From IMG/VR virus record IMGVR_UViG_3300042355_000825, positions 1 through 22,566 of that record: DNA of 22,566 nt. One strand, 5' to 3'. Position numbers and translations under genes: made by a program. This stretch comes from a virus. Below the pieces are notes generated by a model. The model was not told the origin of the DNA, ran no database searches, and saw only the letters and a list, made by a program, of their open reading frames with translations. Shown piece after piece: positions 394 to 19,880 of the stretch. The number at the start of each line of letters is the position of its first letter. Position 1 is the first letter of the stretch.

Positions 394-578
394 AAATGGA
401 TTGGTGGCATACCGCCAACCTGCTTGCCCAACAAGCCAACCTAAACAAAGCAAAGCACGCCCCAAGCACAGACCCGGCCCGGCTCAATCCGTTCGCCAAG
501 AAGGCCAAGCCAAGGCAGGCGACGCCAGAAGAAATTCAGAAACTCCTCGGACCTAACTGGCACGACGTGACCACATGA
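291..578 (+). CDS. Tail assembly protein, -1 frame part (gpT-like), no start codon of its own
   Basis: From about base 291 the coding signal moves to the frame ending at 578. It encodes IWHAIYEAAGILGVHP, then WTFRNLLIARDARLEMDWWH and a basic tail with NPFAKKAKP. The pattern of a short hydrophobic helix, W-T-x-R-x-L, then DWWHTANLLAQQAN resembles the small protein often found just before phage tape measure genes. No ATG, GTG or TTG exists in this frame between 69 and the conserved part. It is therefore expressed by -1 frameshifting from the preceding frame (as in lambda G/GT), by an unusual start, or the frame is split by an indel. An internal ATG at 396 would give only a 60-residue remnant. 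Its stop overlaps the tape measure start (ATGA). Confidence 0.6.
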   Translation, partial: RTIWHAIYEAAGILGVHPGKWTFRNLLIARDARLEMDWWHTANLLAQQANLNKAKHAPSTDPARLNPFAKKAKPRQATPEEIQKLLGPNWHDVTT

Positions 579-3500
579 GCGCTTCAAAGGTCAAAGCCGG
601 TCAGGTATTCGTCGAGATCGGCGCGGACCCGCGGGCTTTCTTCTCCGCCCTCAACAAAATTAACCGCCAGATCGGCAACCTCGGCCGGTCGATGAGCGGG
701 GCCGGCACCAAGATCGCCGGCATGGGGGCGGCGGCGTTGCTGCCATTCGGCGCGGCGATCCGCCAGGGCACGGCCTACCAATCAACGCTCTTGAACATTC
801 AGGCGAGCACCGGGGCGACCGCCGCCGAGCTTGACAGGATCCGCGCCGCCGGGATGCAAGTCTCCCAAGCCCTCGGCGTCGGCCCGACTGAGGCGACGCA
901 GGGCTTCCTAGAGCTCCTCAAAGCCGGCATGAGCCTGGAGCAAGTGCTCGGCGGTGCCGGGCAGACGGCGCTAGAGTTTGCCAAGGTCGGAAATATGGAC
1001 GTGGCCGCCGCCTCGGTGGTCATGGCCGACGCGATGAAAGTGTTTGGCGTTACGGCCGACGTTGCGGCAAACACGATGTCCTCTGCGGCCGATGCCTCCT
1101 CGACGAGTATCGAGGAAATGACAATGGCGTTTAGCCAGTCCGCCGCCGTGGCGGCGTTGGCTAATCAGTCGATGGGCGACCTGTCGGCGGCGTTGGCGGT
1201 GCTCGCCAACAACGGCGTCAAGGGCTCGGACGCCGGCACCAGCGTTAAGACAATGCTCATGCGGCTCATGGCTCCGGCTGACGACGCCGCCGTAGCCCTG
1301 GAGCAAGTCGGCCTGTCGGCAATGTCGTTCCGCGGTGCTGACGGCCAGATCAAACCGATGGTCGAGATCATCGGCACGCTCAACAGTGCCCTCGCCGGCA
1401 TGGATCAAGCGGCAAAAGACGACATCTTCCGCCGCATCTTTGGGCAAGATGCCATTCGAGCCGCTGCTATCCTGACGGCAACCGGCGTCGATGGCTTCAA
1501 CGCCATGACAGACGCGATGGGTAACGCCCTGCCGGTTAGCGAGAAATACAAAACGCTTTCGGCTGGCCTGGCCGGTGCAATGGCAAGCGTCGCCGCTGCC
1601 ATGCAGCGGGCGGCGATCGCCATCAGTGAGGCCGTCGGCCCTGCCCTCATGGCAATCGCCGGGCCGATTGGCGAGGTGATCGACGGGTTTACCAAGTTCG
1701 TCGTCGCCAATCAGGAGCTCGTCGCCGGGTTTGCGAGATTCGCCGTCGGCGCTGTCGGCGTCGGTGTGGCCCTTACTGGCGTCGGGCTTTCGTTGCAGGC
1801 TTCATCGTTTGCCATGGGCGCCCTTGGTAAATCGGTCGCCTTGGCTATGTCGCCGCTTTCAGTGTTGCTCGGAGCAACGTCCAGTCTCGGCAGGGTGTTT
1901 GCGGTCGCATCTGCGCAGGCGGTGGGGCTTGCGACCTCTGTAGGCGCGGCCATGCTGTCGGCCTCGTCTTCTGTGCTGTCGTTCGCGGCCAGCGCCGCAA
2001 CGTCACTGGCCGCCATGGCGGCCGCGTCGAGTGCCGGAATGGCAACACTGGCAGCGTCAACTACGGCCGGATTTGCACGAATGGCCGGGTCTGCGGCGGC
2101 CGCATCGCAAGCGATGTTTCCCGTGTTTTTTACCGGGTTCAATCGCGGCATCAGCGCCGGCGCCGGATTCTTTGCGGCTACGACACGCGGTCTCAACGGC
2201 GTCGTAATGGCGTCGGGTGTTCTTCGCACGGCGTTGCTTGCCGTGTCTGGCTCCGGCGTGGCACGGTTCGTGACGGACATCGGCAGCGGCCTTGCCCTTA
2301 CCTACAAATCGTTTGTTTGGTGGGCCACCGGGGCGACCGCACGAATGGCGCAATACATTGCCAGCATGACGGGGGCCGTGGGTGCGACCATCGCCTCGAC
2401 CGCTGCCATGGCGACGGCATGGATGGGAACCGCCGCTCGCGGCGTGCTGGCGTTTGTCGGTGCCTCAACGGCTGGCCTGGCAAGTTACCTAGGCGCGGCC
2501 GCCATGGCCGTCGCGGGATCTGTTGCGTCGGCCGCGGCAGTGGCGGCGGCGTGGCTCGCCCCGCTCGCTCCGTTCGCGTTGCTTGCGGCCGCTCTTGGAG
2601 GAGCGGTAGCGCTAGCCTATTCGTTTGGCGGTTCCATCAAGTCGGCTTTCTCTGGGCTAGGCGAGCTCGTCGGCCAAGCCGGTGCGGCGATCGGCGGCAC
2701 ATTCGGCGGCGCGATTGCAGAGGCGACGACCGTTTTCGGCGACCTCGCCACGACAGCCACCACGACATTCAACGGCATCTATTCCGCCATTGCCGAGGGC
2801 GACCTCTCTGGGGCAATGGACGTGCTCTGGGCCGGTCTCTACGCTGGCTGGCTCCGCGGCGTCGAGTCGATCATGAACGCGGTCGACCCGTGGGTCTCGA
2901 TGTTCCAGAATGCGTTCACGATTCTCGGAGCCGAAATCTACAAGATTTGGGATTCGCTCTGGACGAATGTCGGGGCCACCGTCAACACCGCCGGCGCTTA
3001 TCTGCTCGGCGCCTTCGACAACATCATCAACCCGATCCTCGCGGCGTGGGACACGCTCGAAGCCGGGATCCGCAAGTCGTGGAACCGCATTCAGTCCTTC
3101 TTAAAAAAAGGCTTTGATCTCAAAAAGGAAAACGACAAGGTCGACTCCGAGATGGCTGCCCGCCGGCGGCAACGGGAGATAGATCGCCCAGGCATTGAAG
3201 GCCGCACCGACAGGGCTGCCCAAGAGAACGCTCGGGCAGAAAAGGAGCGGGCCGACCGCGAGCGGGCCATCGACGACAACACCCAAGCCACGATTGACGG
3301 CCGCGAGGGTGAAAACGAGCGGCGTCGCGGCGAGCGTCGGGCGGCCACCGAAGCCGCCGAGGGTGCCGTTGCCGGCAAGGGTCGCGGCAAGCGCGAGACG
3401 CAAGCCCGCAACCAACAATTTACCGACCTCCTCAAACAGATCGAGGGGGCTAACTCGTCCGACAAACTCACCGATCTTTACGATGAGTTTCAGGCGCTGG

Positions 3501-3817
3501 CATCAAGTGGACGCCTTACGTCGCAGCAATCTATGGCGATCGAGGCCGCGTGGTGGAAGGCGCAAAACAAAATGTCGTCAGCCGCCGGAAAGGTTGGAGG
3601 CGCTGGGAGCTCGCCGGGTGAGCAAGCGGCCGCCGGAGCCGGCGCCGCCGGGGCGGACGCTGCCCAGAGCAAGGCCGAGGTGGCCGGGACGTTCTCCTCG
3701 ACAAACCTCGGGGGCATGGGTTTTGGCTCCTCGCTAGGCGAGAGGCAACTGAAGGCCCTCGAAACGATCGCGAGCAACACGTCGAACATGGAGGGCCCTG
3801 CCTACGCGCAGGAATAA
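575..3817 (+). CDS. Phage tail tape measure protein, TP901 family
   Basis: This 1080-residue protein sets tail length and is thought to be ejected with DNA into the host envelope. Residues about 60-330 have the TP901 core pattern: an ALGVGPTEAT block, FAKVGNMDVAAASVVMADAM, then GVKGSDAGTSVKTMLMRL and IFGQDAIRAA. Long Ala/Gly/Val hydrophobic helices occupy roughly residues 380-690, consistent with membrane-active segments. A strongly charged coiled coil rich in Arg and Glu spans about 850-930. By the rough rule of 0.15 nm per residue the tail would be about 160 nm, suggesting a long siphovirus tail (inference). ATG 575 overlaps the upstream TGA. Function is secure from domain pattern, length and position. 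Confidence 0.95.
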   Translation: MSASKVKAGQVFVEIGADPRAFFSALNKINRQIGNLGRSMSGAGTKIAGMGAAALLPFGAAIRQGTAYQSTLLNIQASTGATAAELDRIRAAGMQVSQALGVGPTEATQGFLELLKAGMSLEQVLGGAGQTALEFAKVGNMDVAAASVVMADAMKVFGVTADVAANTMSSAADASSTSIEEMTMAFSQSAAVAALANQSMGDLSAALAVLANNGVKGSDAGTSVKTMLMRLMAPADDAAVALEQVGLSAMSFRGADGQIKPMVEIIGTLNSALAGMDQAAKDDIFRRIFGQDAIRAAAILTATGVDGFNAMTDAMGNALPVSEKYKTLSAGLAGAMASVAAAMQRAAIAISEAVGPALMAIAGPIGEVIDGFTKFVVANQELVAGFARFAVGAVGVGVALTGVGLSLQASSFAMGALGKSVALAMSPLSVLLGATSSLGRVFAVASAQAVGLATSVGAAMLSASSSVLSFAASAATSLAAMAAASSAGMATLAASTTAGFARMAGSAAAASQAMFPVFFTGFNRGISAGAGFFAATTRGLNGVVMASGVLRTALLAVSGSGVARFVTDIGSGLALTYKSFVWWATGATARMAQYIASMTGAVGATIASTAAMATAWMGTAARGVLAFVGASTAGLASYLGAAAMAVAGSVASAAAVAAAWLAPLAPFALLAAALGGAVALAYSFGGSIKSAFSGLGELVGQAGAAIGGTFGGAIAEATTVFGDLATTATTTFNGIYSAIAEGDLSGAMDVLWAGLYAGWLRGVESIMNAVDPWVSMFQNAFTILGAEIYKIWDSLWTNVGATVNTAGAYLLGAFDNIINPILAAWDTLEAGIRKSWNRIQSFLKKGFDLKKENDKVDSEMAARRRQREIDRPGIEGRTDRAAQENARAEKERADRERAIDDNTQATIDGREGENERRRGERRAATEAAEGAVAGKGRGKRETQARNQQFTDLLKQIEGANSSDKLTDLYDEFQALASSGRLTSQQSMAIEAAWWKAQNKMSSAAGKVGGAGSSPGEQAAAGAGAAGADAAQSKAEVAGTFSSTNLGGMGFGSSLGERQLKALETIASNTSNMEGPAYAQE

Positions 3818-3820
3818 CCG

Positions 3821-4771
3821 ATGCCCCTCGCCTGGATCGAAGACAACGCCAGCCGCTCCGCCACGATCGTCCGCCTCGGGCGAAAGGCGGCGTCGTCATA
3901 CTCAAAGTCTTACAAGGTATTCGGCAGCACCGACGACACGGTCGTCCACGCCGAGGCCAACGCCAAGATCACGGCCGAGCTCGCCTACTGGCAGTATCCC
4001 GGCCAACCCAACGTACAACTGCGGGCCGAGTCCTACAGCGTCGCGTACCTCGGCGATGACGCCTGGCAAGTCACGATCTCCTATGAGAAGAGCGGCGCCG
4101 ACGACGACGATCAGCGTGATCCGCTCAAGCGGTCACGGTCGTTTGACACGAGCGGCGGCACGCAGCACATCACGCAAAGCCCGCTCTACGACGACACGAC
4201 TACGGCAATCGCAGGCCCCGACGGTCTGCCGATCGTGACGCGCACCGTCACTGGCGAGCGCAAGTATGCCGCCACTGGCTCGACGGCCCCTTCTCAGTTT
4301 GGAGCGATCGGCGTCGATGGTCAGTCTGTAAACGGCGTCGACATCGTCACCCCGGCTTTGTCGTGGACCGAGACATACGACGTGCCAAGCAGCTACGTTA
4401 CCGCCACCTATATCAAGCGGACGGCGTTCATCACGGGCACAGTCAATTCCGCAGCGTTTCGCACGTTCCGCGCTGGCGAAGTTTTGTTTATGGGTTGCAG
4501 CGGTAGCCAAGAATGGGACGACCAGCGAGGCAACGGCCCGTGGAGTCTGTCCTACAAATTCGTTGCCTCCCCAAATGCCGGGAGCGGAGAAACGCTCAAG
4601 GCGCTCAAGGTTGGCGACATATCTGGCATCGTGAAAAAGGGCCACGAGTATCTTTGGATCCGCTACGAAGACACCGTGTCGAGTAACGAATTGCTCAAAA
4701 AGCCCAAATTCGTTTACGTCAACGAGGTGTATCCGTCGGCAGACTTCTCGCAACTGGGGATCGGCACCTAA
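3821..4771 (+). CDS. Tail-tip / distal tail-like structural protein
   Basis: This 316-residue protein starts 3 bases after the tape measure stop and is therefore in the distal-tail position. It is rich in beta-forming residues and has no signal peptide or membrane helix. Notable segments are GVDGQSVNGVDIVTP (about 165-180), a TAFITGTVNSAAFRTF block (about 205-220) followed by GEVLFMGCSGS, and GHEYLWIRYED near residue 280. I recall similar blocks, with a GxVN-x-F-GEVLF core and a GxEYLWV/IRY motif, in tail proteins of planctomycete phages, but I could not check this. The likely role is a structural component connecting tail tube and tip. The exact identity (Dit, tip or baseplate) is not established. 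Confidence 0.65.
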   Translation: MPLAWIEDNASRSATIVRLGRKAASSYSKSYKVFGSTDDTVVHAEANAKITAELAYWQYPGQPNVQLRAESYSVAYLGDDAWQVTISYEKSGADDDDQRDPLKRSRSFDTSGGTQHITQSPLYDDTTTAIAGPDGLPIVTRTVTGERKYAATGSTAPSQFGAIGVDGQSVNGVDIVTPALSWTETYDVPSSYVTATYIKRTAFITGTVNSAAFRTFRAGEVLFMGCSGSQEWDDQRGNGPWSLSYKFVASPNAGSGETLKALKVGDISGIVKKGHEYLWIRYEDTVSSNELLKKPKFVYVNEVYPSADFSQLGIGT

Positions 4772-5448
4772 TGGCACGCCCCGACGGACGCATCGAGAAG
4801 GGTCAGCGGCTCTCGTCGGCGATCTCCGCCAGGGCGTGGAACCGGGCGCAGGAGGCGGCGGATCGGGTGCTCGGGGCGGGGACTGGATTTGAGGCCGACG
4901 GCATCCGCGGCCCGTCGGCTCCGTACACGTTTGTGTACGCAAAGAACGGCACAGGCTCCACCGTTGGCCGATGGAGCGTGCAATCAATCACGGGGCTTGA
5001 GATTACCCCCACAAGCAGCGAAACGGCTGCTGCCACAACGCAATTCCTTTCGATGCCATGCCTGACGCTAGGAGCCAGGTCGAGTGCGTCAGACACAACA
5101 AAGGCGTGGTGCGTCGCCCTAGAGCCAATCGAATCAAACAAGCTCGGCCGTGCGGCGGTGTCTGGCGTTGTGCAAGTGAAGGCGGCCGATCTGCAAAAGG
5201 CCAGCGGCTGCCGCGTGCTATACAAAAATGACGACTGGGCGCTCGTCGACATCAACGGCGGAATCGTGCGTGGCACGTTTTCTGGATCGTGGTCAAAAGG
5301 ATCGACGGCCACGGTTACTGATGCAACGTCTAGCAGCGTGACATATACGGCAAAAAACTATTTTGCCGCCCTGACTAGCAGCGGGACGAAAGCCTGCGCC
5401 ATCGCGTACGTCGGTGGCGAGTGGATCCTTATCGCGGTGGAGTGCTAA
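4771..5448 (+). CDS. Tail-tip or virion structural protein, unknown function
   Basis: The start ATG at 4771 overlaps the preceding stop in a TAATG junction, indicating translational coupling. The 225-residue product begins with a charged helix containing SARAWNRAQEAADRVLG (residues about 18-34). The rest is beta-rich, ending in a hydrophobic GGEWILIAVEC. Repeating small polar residues (SSGT, TSSS) are typical of virion proteins. A helical N-terminus with a beta-rich body, in a tail-tip operon, fits an adaptor or decoration protein. I do not recognise a named family. Expression as virion protein is inferred from its position between two tail genes. Confidence 0.6.
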   Translation: MARPDGRIEKGQRLSSAISARAWNRAQEAADRVLGAGTGFEADGIRGPSAPYTFVYAKNGTGSTVGRWSVQSITGLEITPTSSETAAATTQFLSMPCLTLGARSSASDTTKAWCVALEPIESNKLGRAAVSGVVQVKAADLQKASGCRVLYKNDDWALVDINGGIVRGTFSGSWSKGSTATVTDATSSSVTYTAKNYFAALTSSGTKACAIAYVGGEWILIAVEC

Positions 5449-14676: not shown

Positions 14677-15606
14677 CTACGCCGTCCGTTTCCCTTTTGT
14701 GAATTTAGGGGGGGGGGGCATTGTGGGAGACTGGAGAGGACGGGGCCGCACGCGCGACCGCGACGCCGCCACAAGGGCCGGGTCGATGTAGGAAAGGCGA
14801 GCGATCTGCGAGCCTGGCCTATGCCCGAGTTGCTCGGTGGCCGAGCCCTCCTTTTGAATCTCGCAGTCGGTCGCGGAAGAGCGACGCAGCCATTTCCAAG
14901 TGCCAGAACGGATGCCGGCAAGGCGGACGATCCGTTTGAACTGAGCGGTAAACGTCTCGTGACTCGCCGTCCATGGCGTGACGAGCTCGCGGGGGTGGCC
15001 GACGAGCGACGCGGCCAGAGCCGCGAGCGTCTCGGGCGACAGGCGAGGGACGACCACGCTACCCGTCTTCGACTGGCCGAAGGCGATCGTTCCGTCGGGC
15101 CTCACCTGTTCGAGACGGAGCCGGCGGACCTGATCCTCCCAGCGGAGGCCCGCGTCCCACGCGACGCGAATGGCGAGATCCCACCAGGCGGATCGGCGGA
15201 TGCCGCACGGGTGCCACCGCTGGAGTCGCTGGCAGGCTACGAGGAGTTGGTCGACCTCTTCGAGGGTCCAAGCGACCGGAGGTTTCCACGGGCAGCGGAC
15301 TGGCCTCACGCGGCGCGTGGGCAGTTCGCAGAGGCCATCGTCGGCGGCGGCCCGCCACATGATGCAAACGTGATTTCTCTTCGAGCGGACGGTGTTGGGC
15401 GCGACGCCGCTCGCGGCATAGTCGCGGATCCATTCCGAGACGCTGGCCGCGTCGAGGTTCGTCAGCAACACAGGCCCACCGGCCCACCGCTCGAAAAGGC
15501 CGACGCTGATCGCGTATTGGCGCAGCGTCTCCGGCCGGCAGTCGTGAAAGAGGCCGTAGTCGCGGACGTACTCGCCGAGTGTCGTCGGGCCAGAGGCGCG
15601 GAACAT
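14677..15606 (-). CDS. int: Tyrosine-family site-specific integrase
   Basis: This 309-residue minus-strand protein has an N-terminal core-binding (SAM-like) domain with RPETLRQYAISVGLFERWAG, then a catalytic domain. Visible catalytic residues are Arg155 (GLRWED), Lys180 (GQSKTGS), Lys238-x-x-Arg241 (KWLRRSSAT), His262 (LGHRPGS) and Tyr273 (LSYIDP). Lys replaces the more common His of the HxxR box, a known variant. The last residues run into four Pro encoded by an 11-base C tract (G tract on the plus strand). It catalyses integration at attP, which I place at the tRNA fragment upstream of its start. No clear ribosome binding site precedes ATG 15606. Confidence 0.85.
   Translation of the reverse strand: MFRASGPTTLGEYVRDYGLFHDCRPETLRQYAISVGLFERWAGGPVLLTNLDAASVSEWIRDYAASGVAPNTVRSKRNHVCIMWRAAADDGLCELPTRRVRPVRCPWKPPVAWTLEEVDQLLVACQRLQRWHPCGIRRSAWWDLAIRVAWDAGLRWEDQVRRLRLEQVRPDGTIAFGQSKTGSVVVPRLSPETLAALAASLVGHPRELVTPWTASHETFTAQFKRIVRLAGIRSGTWKWLRRSSATDCEIQKEGSATEQLGHRPGSQIARLSYIDPALVAASRSRVRPRPLQSPTMPPPPKFTKGKRTA
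14708..14718. repeat. 11-base G homopolymer inside the integrase 3' end
   Basis: Eleven consecutive G on the plus strand encode the Pro297-Pro300 run near the integrase C-terminus. The gain or loss of one base would change only the last ten or so residues. Such a tract is prone to slippage during replication or to sequencing error. Confidence 0.8.
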
Positions 15607-15707: not shown

Positions 15708-15731
15708 ACTCCAGCCGTCACAACCGGCCCG

Positions 15732-15798
15732 GCTTCAGTTCGTGTAGAGCATCGGTCTACGGAACCGAAGGTTGAAGGTTCGAGCCCTTCCGGGTGTA
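15732..15798 (+). other. tRNA-Arg(ACG) 3' part, putative attP
   Basis: A complete tRNA body except for the 5' acceptor strand can be folded. D-stem 3' strand GAGC (15747-15750) pairs with GCTT; the anticodon stem TCGGT/ACCGA (15752-15756, 15764-15768) encloses the loop CTACGGA with anticodon ACG; variable loop AGGTT; T stem GAAGG/CCTTC with loop TTCGAGC (15774-15790); acceptor 3' strand CGGGTGT then A (15791-15798). The expected 5' strand ACACCCG is missing at the right distance; the closest is ACAACCG, three bases too far away and with one mismatch. This is the signature of a phage attP that carries the 3' end of the host tRNA gene so that integration restores the tRNA. CCA is not encoded. 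Confidence 0.75.
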
Positions 15799-15809
15799 TT
15801 CGGCCGGTA

Positions 15810-15827
15810 GTGAACCGTATGGTTCAC
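15810..15827 (+). promoter_or_regulatory. 7-bp inverted repeat, operator candidate for the repressor gene
   Basis: GTGAACC (15810-15816) and GGTTCAC (15821-15827) form perfect arms around GTAT, 38 bases upstream of the XRE-type gene start. An outer GGCC pair flanks it. The location fits an autoregulatory operator; the tRNA fragment ends just upstream. Confidence 0.5.
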
Positions 15828-15865
15828 CAAGGCCGTGGGCAAGTGATCCCATGGAGGGCGAGGAA

Positions 15866-16126
15866 ATGGCGACAGCGGGCCGACAGAGACACCCCGGCGG
15901 ACGCCCCGCCGTGTACGAGTTGTCGCAGTTTGGCGAGCGGCTTAAGGCCAGGCTCGACCGCAAGGGCTGGTCACGCAACACCCTGTCGGAACGGACAGGC
16001 ATCAACGCCTCGACGCTTTGGCGGTGGATGGTCGGACGGGCGTCTCCGCCTCTCGACAAGGTGGTCGAGATCGCTGGCAAGGTGGGCTGTGAAGCGGCCG
16101 ACCTAATCCCAAAGAAAGCCCGCTAA
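15866..16126 (+). CDS. XRE-family HTH regulator (repressor/Cro-like)
   Basis: Start ATG 15866 has GGAGG 8 bases upstream (15853-15857); the ATG at 15851 is a less likely alternative. The 86-residue protein has a basic Gly/Arg/Pro N-terminus (GRQRHPGGRP), then a lambda-repressor-type HTH: FGERLKARLDRKGWSRNTLSERTGINASTLWRWMVGRASPPLDKVVEIAGKV, with the recognition helix near INASTLWRWM. It ends with DLIPKKAR. It has no C-terminal protease-type dimerisation domain, so it resembles Cro or a minimal repressor. It probably binds the inverted repeats on either side and controls the lysogeny decision. Confidence 0.8.
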   Translation: MATAGRQRHPGGRPAVYELSQFGERLKARLDRKGWSRNTLSERTGINASTLWRWMVGRASPPLDKVVEIAGKVGCEAADLIPKKAR

Positions 16127-16211: not shown

Positions 16212-16320
16212 CGCCTCGGCTTGCATGGAGCGGCCGCGGCGACGCACCCACCAGGCGACGGACTGCCAATGGCTGCCAATCGAGGAGCGACGGGAGCCGC
16301 GCCACAGCAAGGAGGCTCAG

Positions 16321-16683
16321 ATGCAGCGCCACAAATTTCAAGCGTTGGTGACGGACGCTCAACTCCGCGGTTGGCGGAGAGCGGGAGTCACCTACGAATC
16401 CATCGCACAGATGACGGGGATGCGAATCTCCGAAGTCTTGCGCCGGCTACACACGCTCTATTCGGTGCCGAGGAGCCCCGACCCCTCGCCCGAGGCCATC
16501 GAGCAAGCTTGCGCCGAGATCCGGCGCGGCTGGTCGGAGGAGGAGCACGCTCAACGGTGCGTACAGCGGGCCGGCAGTTGGACGCCAGCCGTCGTACCCG
16601 TCTCCGTTCTGGGCTGTGTCAACGGTTGGCGGAGTGGCTTCGACGCACTGCCAGAGTCCATGCCCACCTGTGCGCGATCGTGA
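16321..16683 (+). CDS. Putative HTH regulatory protein, first gene of the early operon
   Basis: ATG 16321 is preceded by AAGGAGG (16309-16315) with a 5-base spacer, one of the strongest ribosome binding sites here; the in-frame ATG at 16159 lies in the operator region and is rejected. The 120-residue product has a helix-turn-helix-like segment (WRRAGVTYESIAQMTGMRISEVLRRLHTL, about residues 17-45), then a Pro/Glu segment with EIRRGWSEEEHAQRCVQRAGSWTP. The C-terminal 40 residues look less conserved, and another frame appears coding there too. It may be an early transcription regulator. No named family recognised. Confidence 0.6.
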   Translation: MQRHKFQALVTDAQLRGWRRAGVTYESIAQMTGMRISEVLRRLHTLYSVPRSPDPSPEAIEQACAEIRRGWSEEEHAQRCVQRAGSWTPAVVPVSVLGCVNGWRSGFDALPESMPTCARS

Positions 16684-16985
16684 GGCTCTACGGCAGCCCG
16701 TCGCGGGCCGGTGGGCAATCGCTCCAAGGCGACACCTACGCGGCCCGCGCGGCTGCCGGCGACCGCACGCTCTTGCATGAGGCGTTAACACTCGCGCTCG
16801 ACGAGCTCACGGCGATCCGCGAGGAGCTTGAGGCCCAGATGGCGGCGGCACCGCCGACGGTGGCACCGCCTGGCAGCAAAACAAAAGTCGACGAGATGGC
16901 GGCCCGCGCCGAGCGCGGCGACGCCCTGTTCATCGACGGCGATTCAAAGGGAGCCGACGACGGATCGCCGGCAAATCAAGGATGA
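16680..16985 (+). CDS. Small helical hypothetical protein
   Basis: GTG 16680 overlaps the previous stop as GTGA; TTG starts at 16578 or 16626 are alternatives that would overlap the preceding gene by about 100 bases. The 101-residue protein has an Arg/Ala-rich N-terminus, a helix with LLHEALTLALDELTAIREELEAQMAA (about 29-54), a Pro/Val linker and an acidic tail (GDALFIDGDSKGADDG). Its end overlaps the leader of csrA, so its translation could affect CsrA access to that RNA. No family recognised. Confidence 0.5.
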   Translation: MRLYGSPSRAGGQSLQGDTYAARAAAGDRTLLHEALTLALDELTAIREELEAQMAAAPPTVAPPGSKTKVDEMAARAERGDALFIDGDSKGADDGSPANQG

Positions 16986-17013
16986 CGTTTCGGCGGCGGC
17001 GACGGATCGCCGC
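16977..17013 (+). promoter_or_regulatory. Candidate CsrA-binding leader of phage csrA
   Basis: CAAGGATG (16977-16984) equals the core of the published CsrA SELEX consensus CARGGAUG. From 16996 to 17013 the sequence GCGGCGACGGATCGCCGC forms a perfect 7-bp hairpin (GCGGCGA with TCGCCGC) around the tetraloop CGGA, with A and T as closing pair, i.e. an ACGGAU presented at the loop. A further ACGGAT is at 16960-16965 and the ribosome binding site GGAGGG is at 17026-17031. Multiple GGA sites including the ribosome binding site are the layout of CsrA-repressed leaders. Confidence 0.6.
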
Positions 17014-17034
17014 TGGCCGGGTTTTGGAGGGTGA

Positions 17035-17232
17035 ATGCTCGTACTGAGTCGGAAAGAGGGTGAGTCGATCGTGGTGCCTGAGCACCGTATCGAGATTGTC
17101 GTCCGAGAGATCGACGGCGATCGCGTGAAGATCGGAGTCAAAGCCCCCGACGAGGTCGACATCTACCGCTCTGAATTGTGGCAAGAGTTGTGTTTTGAGG
17201 AATTTCAAAAAGGCAAAGGAGAACGGCAATGA
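17035..17232 (+). CDS. csrA: Phage-encoded CsrA-family RNA-binding regulator
   Basis: The 65-residue protein has the full CsrA pattern: MLVLSRKEGESIVV, IEIVVREIDGDRVKIGVKAPDEVDIYRSEL. Leu4 and Arg45 (equivalent to Arg44 of E. coli CsrA) are the residues that contact RNA and are present. GDRVKIGVKAP matches the hydrophobic core. It is dimeric in the known family and binds GGA-containing hairpins in 5' leaders, blocking or stabilising mRNAs. The start has GGAGG 4 bases upstream. The C-terminal tail QKGKGERQ is basic. It leads the recombination operon and its stop overlaps the next gene start (ATGA). It could reprogram host metabolism, or regulate phage early genes, including itself. Confidence 0.93.
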   Translation: MLVLSRKEGESIVVPEHRIEIVVREIDGDRVKIGVKAPDEVDIYRSELWQELCFEEFQKGKGERQ

Positions 17233-18188
17233 GTCTGAAGATCGTACGAGGCAAGCAGGCGACCGCATCGCGCGTGGTCGTGTACGGAACCGAAGGCATT
17301 GGCAAGAGCACGCTCGCCGGGCAGTTTCCGGCACCGCTGGTGCTTGACACCGAGGAGGGTACGCACCATCTCGATGTCGCCCGCGTCTCGTGTCACGACT
17401 GGACGACGCTCGAAGGGGCCATGCTGGAACTGGGCCGCGACCGCCAGGGCTTCGAGACGGTGGTCGTGGATTCCGCCGATTGGGCTGAGCGGCACCTCGT
17501 CGACCATTTGCTCCGCAAGAGCGGCAAGCGGTCAATCGAGGAGTTCGGGTTTGGCAAGGGCTACACCATGCTCGCCGAGCATTTTACGAAGCTTCTCGCG
17601 GCTGCCGACAGCCTGGTTCGCAACGGGCTCCACGTCGTTTTCGTCGCCCATTCGCAGGTGAAGCGCACAAGCCCGCCCGACCAGGATGAAGGCTACGACC
17701 GCTACGAACTCAAACTGACGAAGCAAACGGCGCCGCTCCTCCGCGAGTGGGCCGACGCCCTGCTCTTCTGTAACTACAAGCTCAAGGTCGTCGAGGGATC
17801 CGATGGCCGCATGAAGGCCCGCGGCGGAAAGGAGCGGATCATCTACGCCGAGCGGTCGGCGGCGTGGGACGCGAAAAACCGCTACGGCCTGGCGGCCGAG
17901 CTCCCGATGACGATCGACAGCCTCGCGCCGCTGTTCGCGAGCACGCCGGCCCCGGCGGCGCCGAAGCCGAAGGCGAAGCCAAAGACGCTCCGCGAGCGGA
18001 TCGCCGAGGCGGACAGCGTCCAAGCCCTCGGCGACATCGGCGACCTCATCGCCGAGCAAGAGTCGGCCGGCAAGCTCACGGGCGAACAGGTGGCGACGCT
18101 CATGGGGCTCATCAACTCGCGACACGCCGAGATTCAGCCGCCGACCGATGCCCCGTGGGAAAAGGAGGCCGCCGATGTCGTGGCATAA
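17229..18188 (+). CDS. Sak4-like AAA/RecA-type ATPase, phage recombination
   Basis: ATG 17229 overlaps the csrA stop; AGGAG is about 8 bases upstream. The 319-residue protein has Walker A YGTEGIGKST at about residues 19-28, LVLDTEEG (about 38-45), and Walker B VVVDSADW (about 78-85), followed by FVAHSQVKR as a sensor strand. This is the AAA_24 / Sak4 type, a single-domain RecA-like protein that supports phage single-strand annealing recombination with SSB. The C-terminal 80 residues are a basic Pro/Lys linker and a helical domain (LRERIAEADSVQALGDIGDLIAEQE). The SSB-like gene two genes downstream supports the assignment. Confidence 0.8.
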   Translation: MSLKIVRGKQATASRVVVYGTEGIGKSTLAGQFPAPLVLDTEEGTHHLDVARVSCHDWTTLEGAMLELGRDRQGFETVVVDSADWAERHLVDHLLRKSGKRSIEEFGFGKGYTMLAEHFTKLLAAADSLVRNGLHVVFVAHSQVKRTSPPDQDEGYDRYELKLTKQTAPLLREWADALLFCNYKLKVVEGSDGRMKARGGKERIIYAERSAAWDAKNRYGLAAELPMTIDSLAPLFASTPAPAAPKPKAKPKTLRERIAEADSVQALGDIGDLIAEQESAGKLTGEQVATLMGLINSRHAEIQPPTDAPWEKEAADVVA

Positions 18189-18402
18189 CGAAACACCGTG
18201 GGCCGCGAAGCGGCGCAAGGCCGCCGAGCAAAAGGCCGAGATTCTGCGCCGCATCGACGAGATCGAAGCCCTTGTCGGCCGTGTGCGGTCGGGCCACGTC
18301 TCGGAAAAGAAGGCGCTTGACCAGATCGAGGAGATCGCCCGCGACGGCGTCGAGGCGATCGTGAAGGTTGGACGCACACACACACCGGAGGTAACGACGT
18401 GA
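18175..18402 (+). CDS. Small charged helical protein in the recombination operon
   Basis: ATG 18175 is preceded by AAGGAGG (18163-18169) and overlaps the ATPase by 14 bases; ATG 18148 is in frame but has a weaker site. The 75-residue product is highly charged and helical: KRRKAAEQKAEILRRIDEIEALVGRVRSG, then KALDQIEEIARDGVEAIVKVG. It is a coiled-coil candidate with no recognised domain. Its place between the ATPase and the SSB-like protein suggests an accessory of the recombination complex. Confidence 0.6.
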   Translation: MSWHNETPWAAKRRKAAEQKAEILRRIDEIEALVGRVRSGHVSEKKALDQIEEIARDGVEAIVKVGRTHTPEVTT

Positions 18403-18878
18403 GCGACTGGTTTGATGACGTGGATTTCCCGCCGCAGCCTGCCGAGGCGTCCGCACCTCCGGCCGGCGAGCGGGAGCAACTCCCCGAGGGCGAGCACGCG
18501 ATGGAGATCAAGAAGGTGATCGACCACGATGATCGCTTGGAGGTGAGGCTCGCCCACGCCGAGCGGCGGTATGGGTGGGTCTTCTGTCGTCTCCCGAAGA
18601 CGGCCGAATGGGCCAAGCGCATCGCCCACGAGCTCCGCGTCGCGCTTGACATTCCCAAGGGCGGGCTGATGGCGGCCGTTGAGGCCGGCGACCTGGAGGG
18701 CAAGACGGTTGTCGCCCGCGTCTACCACCGGGCGACCGATCGCGGGACGTTCGTGAACGTCGGCGGGTTCAAGGGTGCAATTCAGCCGGAGGCGACGGAA
18801 CACAAGCCGCGACGTGGCACCGCCGCCAAGGTGCTCGCCGCTCACAAGGAGGTCGCACCAGATGACATCCCCTTCTAG
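18399..18878 (+). CDS. SSB-like / DUF669-type phage protein ending in DDIPF
   Basis: GTG 18399 overlaps the preceding stop and has GGAGG about 7 bases upstream. The 159-residue protein has an acidic N-terminus (MSDWFDDVDFPPQ), a beta-rich centre with HAMEIKKVIDHDDRLEVRLAH and VFCRLPKTAEWAKRIAHEL, GKTVVARVYHRATDRGTFVNVGGF, and ends in APDDIPF. An acidic tail closing with DDIPF is the protein-interaction tip of bacterial SSB. This fits the DUF669-type ssDNA-binding proteins found next to phage recombinases. It probably binds ssDNA and recruits host or phage repair proteins through its tip. Confidence 0.75.
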   Translation: MSDWFDDVDFPPQPAEASAPPAGEREQLPEGEHAMEIKKVIDHDDRLEVRLAHAERRYGWVFCRLPKTAEWAKRIAHELRVALDIPKGGLMAAVEAGDLEGKTVVARVYHRATDRGTFVNVGGFKGAIQPEATEHKPRRGTAAKVLAAHKEVAPDDIPF

Positions 18879-19056
18879 CGCGACGTTCCTCGGCGGGCCG
18901 CTCGACGGCACGACCTACCGCCGCGTCGGCGGGCGGTTTCCGACGCGGCTGGTGATGCCCGTCAACGGGCGGACGCATCTTTACGTCGCGATCTACGACG
19001 GGCGGCGTGTGACGTATCGGCATGTGCGGGCGATGGCGGTGGAGGTGGTGACGTGA
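18862..19056 (+). CDS. Small hypothetical protein
   Basis: ATG 18862 overlaps the preceding gene by 17 bases and has AAGGAGG (18846-18852) 9 bases upstream, which decides this start over 18775. The 64-residue product begins MTSPSSATFLGGPLDGTTYRRVG and continues with short beta strands (THLYVAIYDGRRVTYRHV). The FLGGPLDG opening is common in small phage proteins of unknown function. Coupled to the next gene by GTGA overlap. Confidence 0.6.
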   Translation: MTSPSSATFLGGPLDGTTYRRVGGRFPTRLVMPVNGRTHLYVAIYDGRRVTYRHVRAMAVEVVT

Positions 19057-19880
19057 AAAGGCCAGCCATCATGACGTTCTCACGCATCGCCAAGGCGTAC
19101 CTTGCCGAGCGGATCGTGTCGCACACCTACTCGGCCAACGTCTCGCGCATCGCCGCTAGGTGCGGCGAGGTGACGGTCGATCGCGTCAACGCCTATCTCC
19201 GCGGCATCGCCGCCGAGAAGGCATCGACGACCGTACGCTCCGAGCGGACGATCCTCCTAACGCTTTACTGTTGGGCCTACCAGACCGGCATGATCGACGT
19301 TGCACCGCGCGGCGTGATGAAGATCAAGGCCCGCAAGCGGCCAACGCAGGCGTGGACGGTCGGCCAACTGCGGGCCCTCGTCGAGGCCACGAAGGCGTAC
19401 GACGGCCGCCGGCTGCGGTCGGGGGCCGACCTCGGCCAGTTCCTTCGGTGCTGGGTGCTCCTCGCCTACGAGTGCGGGGCGCGGTTTGGCGACGTGATGG
19501 CGTTCACCGCCGACAGCGTCTCCGGCGACACGCTGGCATGGACGCAATCGAAGACGGGCGATCCTCTCACTCGACCGCTCACGCCGGCCTGTCTCACGGC
19601 TATCGACGCCATGCTTGCGGCCTCACCCGACGGCAGGATCCTCGGGTGGGCCTGCGGCCGCCGCATGGCGATGCGGTGGATGCGTGAGCTTCTCGACGGC
19701 CAGGGGCTCGGCGGCTCGTCGAAGTGGCTGCGCCGCTCTGGGGCCACTCATTGCGAAATGGAACAGGCCGGAGCCGGGCGGCTCCACCTCGGGCATCGCT
19801 CGCCTGCGCTGTTTGAGGCTGCCTACTGCGATTGGGGCCAGTTGCGAACGAAGACGCCGCGAACGCCGGCGTTGGTTTAA
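19053..19880 (+). CDS. Second tyrosine-family recombinase, early operon
   Basis: This 275-residue protein starts at GTG 19053, overlapping the upstream stop. It has a core-binding domain (FSRIAKAYLAERIVSHTYSANV, then NAYLRGIAAEKASTTVRSERTILLTLYCWA) and a catalytic domain with Arg144 (CGARFGD), Lys167 (QSKTGD), Lys224-x-x-Arg227 (KWLRRSGAT), His248 (LGHRS) and Tyr258 (EAAYCD). Box II has Lys as in the integrase. All catalytic positions are present. It lies in the replication/recombination operon, away from the attachment site. It may resolve genome multimers, invert DNA or serve a second integration mode; the sequence does not decide. Confidence 0.8.
   Translation: MKRPAIMTFSRIAKAYLAERIVSHTYSANVSRIAARCGEVTVDRVNAYLRGIAAEKASTTVRSERTILLTLYCWAYQTGMIDVAPRGVMKIKARKRPTQAWTVGQLRALVEATKAYDGRRLRSGADLGQFLRCWVLLAYECGARFGDVMAFTADSVSGDTLAWTQSKTGDPLTRPLTPACLTAIDAMLAASPDGRILGWACGRRMAMRWMRELLDGQGLGGSSKWLRRSGATHCEMEQAGAGRLHLGHRSPALFEAAYCDWGQLRTKTPRTPALV

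Follow-up and report, generated by a model that had tools for sequence, protein, structure and literature searches.

Phage-borne csrA genes and the window locus

Genes for CsrA-family RNA-binding proteins have been reported in 30 of 2517 phage genomes (Sobrero & Valverde 2020, PMC7366521), where their roles are untested and loss-of-function experiments were called for. Here we analysed one such gene and its leader in the window, a linear virus sequence from IMG/VR (record IMGVR_UViG_3300042355_000825; 22,566 bases, G+C content 64%), in which csrA directly precedes a gene for a Sak4-like single-strand annealing ATPase. From sequence comparison, the phage CsrA probably binds its own leader and gates the translation of the csrA-sak4 operon.

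Pseudomonas phages with an RsmM-type csrA (phi297, F116 and others) resemble the window in carrying the gene, but their CsrA is only about 40% identical to that of the window. In phi297 (L344, positions 2501-5153), csrA shares its operon orientation with genes for a PD-(D/E)XK nuclease and the annealing protein RecT, which follow about 2 kb later, and may represent a parallel, independent link to phage recombination genes. However, no strong hairpin with an ANGGAN loop was seen in the phi297 leader. Another Pseudomonas phage record (L345) contains two genes annotated as CsrA-like global regulatory proteins at 1371-1583 and 2501-2872, about 1.1 kb apart. Bcep22-like phages (JC1, DC1) also encode CsrA (PMC9144972). 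In contrast to the window, their csrA lies among virion genes, ahead of that for the major capsid protein, is possibly virion-associated and has no tie to a recombinase.

Two bacterial RNA layouts are comparable to the window leader. In glgC-type repression, CsrA bridges the GGA of a hairpin loop and the GGA of the Shine-Dalgarno sequence, which blocks translation (PMC7652899). The phage leader displays the same layout of hairpin GGA and Shine-Dalgarno GGA as E. coli glgC and the autoregulated E. coli csrA. Unlike there, regulator and target are both phage genes coupled to a recombinase, and no CsrB-like antagonist RNA was found, the sole Rfam match being a tRNA. The second layout is the ANGGAN hexaloop, the recognition motif of RsmE and RsmN (PMC3791407; PMC7652899), which is presented on a stem in the hcnA leader and in RsmZ (PMC3791407). 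The window loop, ACGGAU, conforms to it, whereas the stems of the putative phage sites are longer and GC-rich. Within the open-licence literature, we found no paper that mentions Sak4 together with CsrA, and none that reports cognate sites in the leader of a phage csrA. The locus comprises the following features:

16221-16985, plus strand: upstream open reading frame (ORF), start uncertain, no family match; distal hairpin within its final codons
16953-16972, plus strand: distal CsrA-type hairpin with loop ACGGAU (16960-16965) and one A.C mismatch in the stem; inside the 3'-terminal part of the upstream ORF
16994-17015, plus strand: proximal CsrA-type hairpin at -33 relative to the csrA start; perfect stem of 8 bp and hexaloop ACGGAU (17002-17007)
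17026-17030, plus strand: Shine-Dalgarno GGAGG with the third GGA, 22 nt past the proximal GGA
17035-17232, plus strand: csrA, 65-residue CsrA-family RNA-binding protein with Leu4 and Arg45
17229-18188, plus strand: Sak4-like single-strand annealing ATPase (AAA_24), identified by profile matches; ATGA overlap with csrA

The ORF at 17035-17232 encodes a bona fide CsrA. Its product scored 72.1 bits against the Pfam CsrA profile PF02599 (cut-off 27, E=3.6e-20) and matched PHROG 9500 ('CsrA-like regulator'). Across 30 aligned phage and bacterial CsrAs, M1, L2, Leu4, R6 and Arg45 were invariant; Arg45 is the equivalent of Arg44, and the GxxAP segment is kept (G34, A37, P38). The protein aligns with E. 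coli CsrA across most of its length, with one additional residue between strands 1 and 2. An AlphaFold2 model of the monomer (mean pLDDT 84.7) predicts the CsrA fold, with strands followed by a C-terminal helix. All significant or near-significant PDB matches of this model were CsrA, RsmA or RsmE structures, including the RsmE-RNA complexes 2jpp and 2mfc (query-normalised TM 0.62-0.70 among long alignments). Thus, the 65-residue CsrA with Leu4 and Arg45 that a preliminary description had read from the letters is confirmed by its exact ORF, its invariant residues and a high profile score, and the predicted monomer fold agrees with it.

In five near relatives on other virus contigs (L002-L006), CsrA is 91% identical. 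Since dN/dS within this near group ranges from 0.016 to 0.13, csrA is maintained by strong purifying selection. The A2 alignment query for csrA returned no additional contigs.

The Sak4-like ATPase with ATGA coupling, which had likewise been proposed to follow csrA directly, is present: the junction is an ATGA at 17229-17232, and the product matches AAA_24 (166 bits) and phrog_124, 'Sak4-like ssDNA annealing protein' (168 bits, residues 4-259). The proposed place of csrA at the head of this operon is doubtful: a same-strand ORF stops only 49 nt before csrA (at 16985), so csrA may be an internal gene. The phage protein extends an established family by one member, and its arrangement with sak4 is a novel variation.

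Hairpins in the csrA leader

Two copies of GACGGATCGCC precede csrA in the window. The leader contains GGA at 16962, 17004 and 17026, hence two or more sites with one at the Shine-Dalgarno sequence and a spacing that fits bridging, one of the stems being mismatched. The GGA within the Shine-Dalgarno GGAGG is likely a weak CsrA site. Four of the five near relatives have a G-C or G-U pair in place of the A.C mismatch in the distal stem. The leader had previously been delimited as 16977-17031, which is too short, as the distal hairpin (16953-16972) falls outside it, within the end of the upstream ORF. An Rfam search with the leader revealed no known RNA family.

We then compared non-redundant 150-nt leaders, counting ANGGAN hexaloops on stems of at least 6 bp. 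Such hairpins were found in 12 of the 17 leaders of a first set, versus 0.04 expected from shuffles and 0.02 from random windows of the same loci; the next commonest loop class occurred in two leaders. In a second set, obtained with a different Sak4 query and with the hairpin rule fixed beforehand, five of 17 leaders contained one (0.01 expected). Pooled, this gives 17 of 34 leaders against 0.06 in controls, and at least two hairpins in four leaders against 0.01 expected. Other csrA leaders lacked ANGGAN hairpins of at least 5 bp (none of 78 chromosomal and none of 18 other phage leaders). Within the csrA loci, 46 hairpins with stems of at least 6 bp were located in leaders, compared to nine in the rest of 402 kb (both strands, redundant loci included). 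Leader matches with at least 4 bp cluster at about -80 to -98, -33 to -47 and -12. When all viral contigs were scanned for a pair of CGACGGATCG sites, 32 contigs matched, and only near relatives have the sites before csrA; outside that group, this loose pattern was rejected as uninformative.

Base composition might produce such hairpins in GC-rich DNA, as might intrinsic termination or a coding constraint of the upstream ORF; together, these readings are the least probable of those we considered. The dinucleotide shuffles and same-locus windows yielded almost no hairpins. A short T run does follow the proximal hairpin in the window, but it is missing in L003 and L004. The distal hairpin does overlap the upstream ORF, but its codon phase differs between lineages, being read in two phases as DGS or TDR; therefore, the protein sequence of the upstream ORF fails to explain it.

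To assess pairing, we aligned without gaps 30 distinct ACGGAT-anchored leader sites that had not been selected for pairing; pair counts on sites picked for pairing were discarded as circular. In this set, 81.4% of the cells were paired versus 50.9% after shuffling. The covariation score was 0.692 versus 0.222, and none of 500 shuffles reached the observed value. While kinship among the sequences may inflate the shuffle control, slid registers preserve it and scored at most 0.27. Each of the seven stem pairs varies on both sides. Distant relatives present the same loop on dissimilar stems, such as ccgccACGGATggcgg (L183), ccggcacgACGGATcgtgtcgg (L235), ccggcgtgACGGATcacgccgg (L207) and ggccgcgAAGGACtgcggcc (L184).

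This covariation also bears on the idea that a phage repressor uses the repeats as its DNA operator. The sequence GGCGACGGATCGCC, with perfect inverted arms about a 4-nt centre, is present twice, and a helix-turn-helix (HTH) repressor-like gene is encoded at 15794-16126. However, a DNA site would fix its arms, yet the arms vary freely with pairing retained. In addition, the asymmetric ANGGAN is fixed on one strand: with at least 4 bp, all 35 leader matches lie on the mRNA strand. We therefore regard an operator as very improbable indeed.

csrA and sak4 across uncultured phages and their hosts

A search with the window Sak4 revealed CsrA upstream of sak4 on the same strand in 47 of 80 loci, and using a diverged Sak4 as second query added 66 loci, 50 of them with CsrA. 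The two genes are mostly separated by no more than about 250 bp, while one group shows distances of 0.8 to 2 kb. Similarities of CsrA and Sak4 are correlated (Mantel r=0.33, 0 of 2,000 permutations); thus, the pair is largely co-inherited. A csrA ahead of sak4 characterises this clade and is a standing part of its recombination region, not a stray moron. Phage csrA had been called uncommon, which fits the survey of phage genomes at large (PMC7366521) but not this Sak4 phage group, where the gene is common. Both the clade trait and the enrichment of its leaders in a CsrA recognition element appear to be unreported.

Some loci (L201, L203, L217-L225 and relatives) encode a divergent CsrA-like protein that starts with MPLRLDRREGQS and has a longer first loop. 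These genes are located 0.8-2 kb before sak4, and leader hairpins are absent.

The preliminary description had also suggested that the phage protein could rewire host metabolism, for which we found no support, and no host target was identified. In a broader form, CsrA would be a takeover factor acting on host mRNAs for metabolism or motility, with the adjacency to sak4 incidental. CsrA is a global regulator in bacteria, and the csrA of phage JC1 has been termed a moron gene (PMC9144972). But the recurrent linkage to sak4 in diverged phages and the cognate-type sites in the gene's own leader point to phage-internal use, which makes host takeover quite improbable.

A different role for the host is suggested by relatives without csrA. 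One clade of the Sak4 tree (L182, L187, L196, L198, L202) lacks csrA and is placed with good support beside csrA-positive clades, and several of its members retain a hairpin directly before sak4, for instance ggtcgggggcggtcgACGGACcggccgcctccgatt at -85. CsrA was not found elsewhere on 22 csrA-less records, all of them fragmentary. The RNA element thus seems to be part of the sak4 operon and able to outlast csrA, and host CsrA may read the hairpin in such phages. Such a hairpin is absent from most csrA-less loci in the second set. Upstream of sak4 in L182, L197 and L198, no ANGGAN hairpin exceeds the threshold, yet these regions look GGA-rich within other short hairpins.

The closest cellular CsrAs belong mostly to Pirellulaceae and other Planctomycetota, whose proteins are 52-60% identical to the phage CsrA. 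The host may be Planctomycetota-like, judging solely from this similarity. Among 392 Planctomycetota genomes, a search run without a positive control detected no close Sak4 or prophage. Planctomycete Sak4-like matches were 34-38% identical, and the four such loci that we read had neither csrA nor strong hairpins alongside. The CsrA tree is built on too few columns for dating the acquisition or naming the donor.

The leader could mainly sense host CsrA, with the phage copy competing with, buffering or replacing the host protein. The hairpins retained by a csrA-less clade inside the csrA-positive part of the Sak4 tree, the failure to find CsrA elsewhere on the 22 records and the CsrAs of Planctomycetota are consistent with this. 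However, most carriers have a csrA of their own at exactly this locus, the csrA-less records are fragmentary, and most of those in the second set have no hairpin. We consider host sensing rather unlikely.

Elsewhere in the window, we identified the following genes:

575-3817: tail tape-measure gene
15794-16126: HTH repressor-like gene
18148-18402, plus strand: small ORF overlapping the sak4 end, function unassigned
18399-18878, plus strand: ORF of the same overlapping cluster, no family match

Beyond the tape-measure gene, the window encodes phage integrase, replication and RusA-like genes. Two different tyrosine-integrase-like genes, at 14677-15606 (minus strand) and 19053-19880 (plus strand), flank the csrA-sak4 region. 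A tRNA-like sequence at 15727-15796 (Rfam tRNA, 31.8 bits, no ARAGORN call) is located directly upstream of the minus-strand integrase gene and is possibly part of an attachment site.

A proposed Csr circuit for phage recombination genes

Our preferred reading is that the CsrA made by the phage would act chiefly on the phage's own mRNA. A CsrA dimer would bind the proximal hairpin, and the distal one as well, through the ANGGAN loops and would bridge from there to the Shine-Dalgarno GGA. Ribosome entry at csrA would be blocked, and translation of Sak4 would be lowered too, through coupling at the ATGA overlap. The benefit would be a self-limiting post-transcriptional timer, that is, delay or dose control of the recombination operon. 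Repression is the most likely effect of CsrA on the leader, but activation, mRNA protection or a Rho-related effect may occur instead. The earlier suggestion that CsrA gates early phage translation gains backing from the conserved, covarying CsrA-type hairpins predicted in the csrA leaders of many relatives.

Several observations weigh against this reading. About half of the csrA leaders have no clear site with a stem of at least 5 bp. The stems measure 7-13 bp and are longer than most SELEX ligands, which have four or fewer contiguous pairs (PMC7652899). The distal hairpin of the window is mismatched, and the ensemble predicted for the full leader has its GGA paired for the most part. Loop A and U are able to pair, which leaves a CGGA tetraloop. 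Many relatives have a gap of 70-230 bp between csrA and sak4 instead of an overlap. Finally, the leader of the near group (L002-L006) is no more conserved than its equally conserved flanks; we did not use its conservation as evidence, and the case for the leader therefore rests on distant comparison.

On a wider scale, a large group of uncultured phages may possess a self-contained Csr circuit, in which their own CsrA and its cognate leader hairpins switch translation of the Sak4 operon while csrA-less sisters use host CsrA. We consider the chances of this to be about even.

The csrA genes of phages and plasmids have been noticed for years with their role left open, and here the likely target adjoins the gene. 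With the leader adjacent, a single purified protein and a 90-nt RNA would suffice to examine this role directly. If the reading is true, a CsrA carried by phages would control recombination genes post-transcriptionally, and the locus could be a meeting point of host and phage Csr systems.
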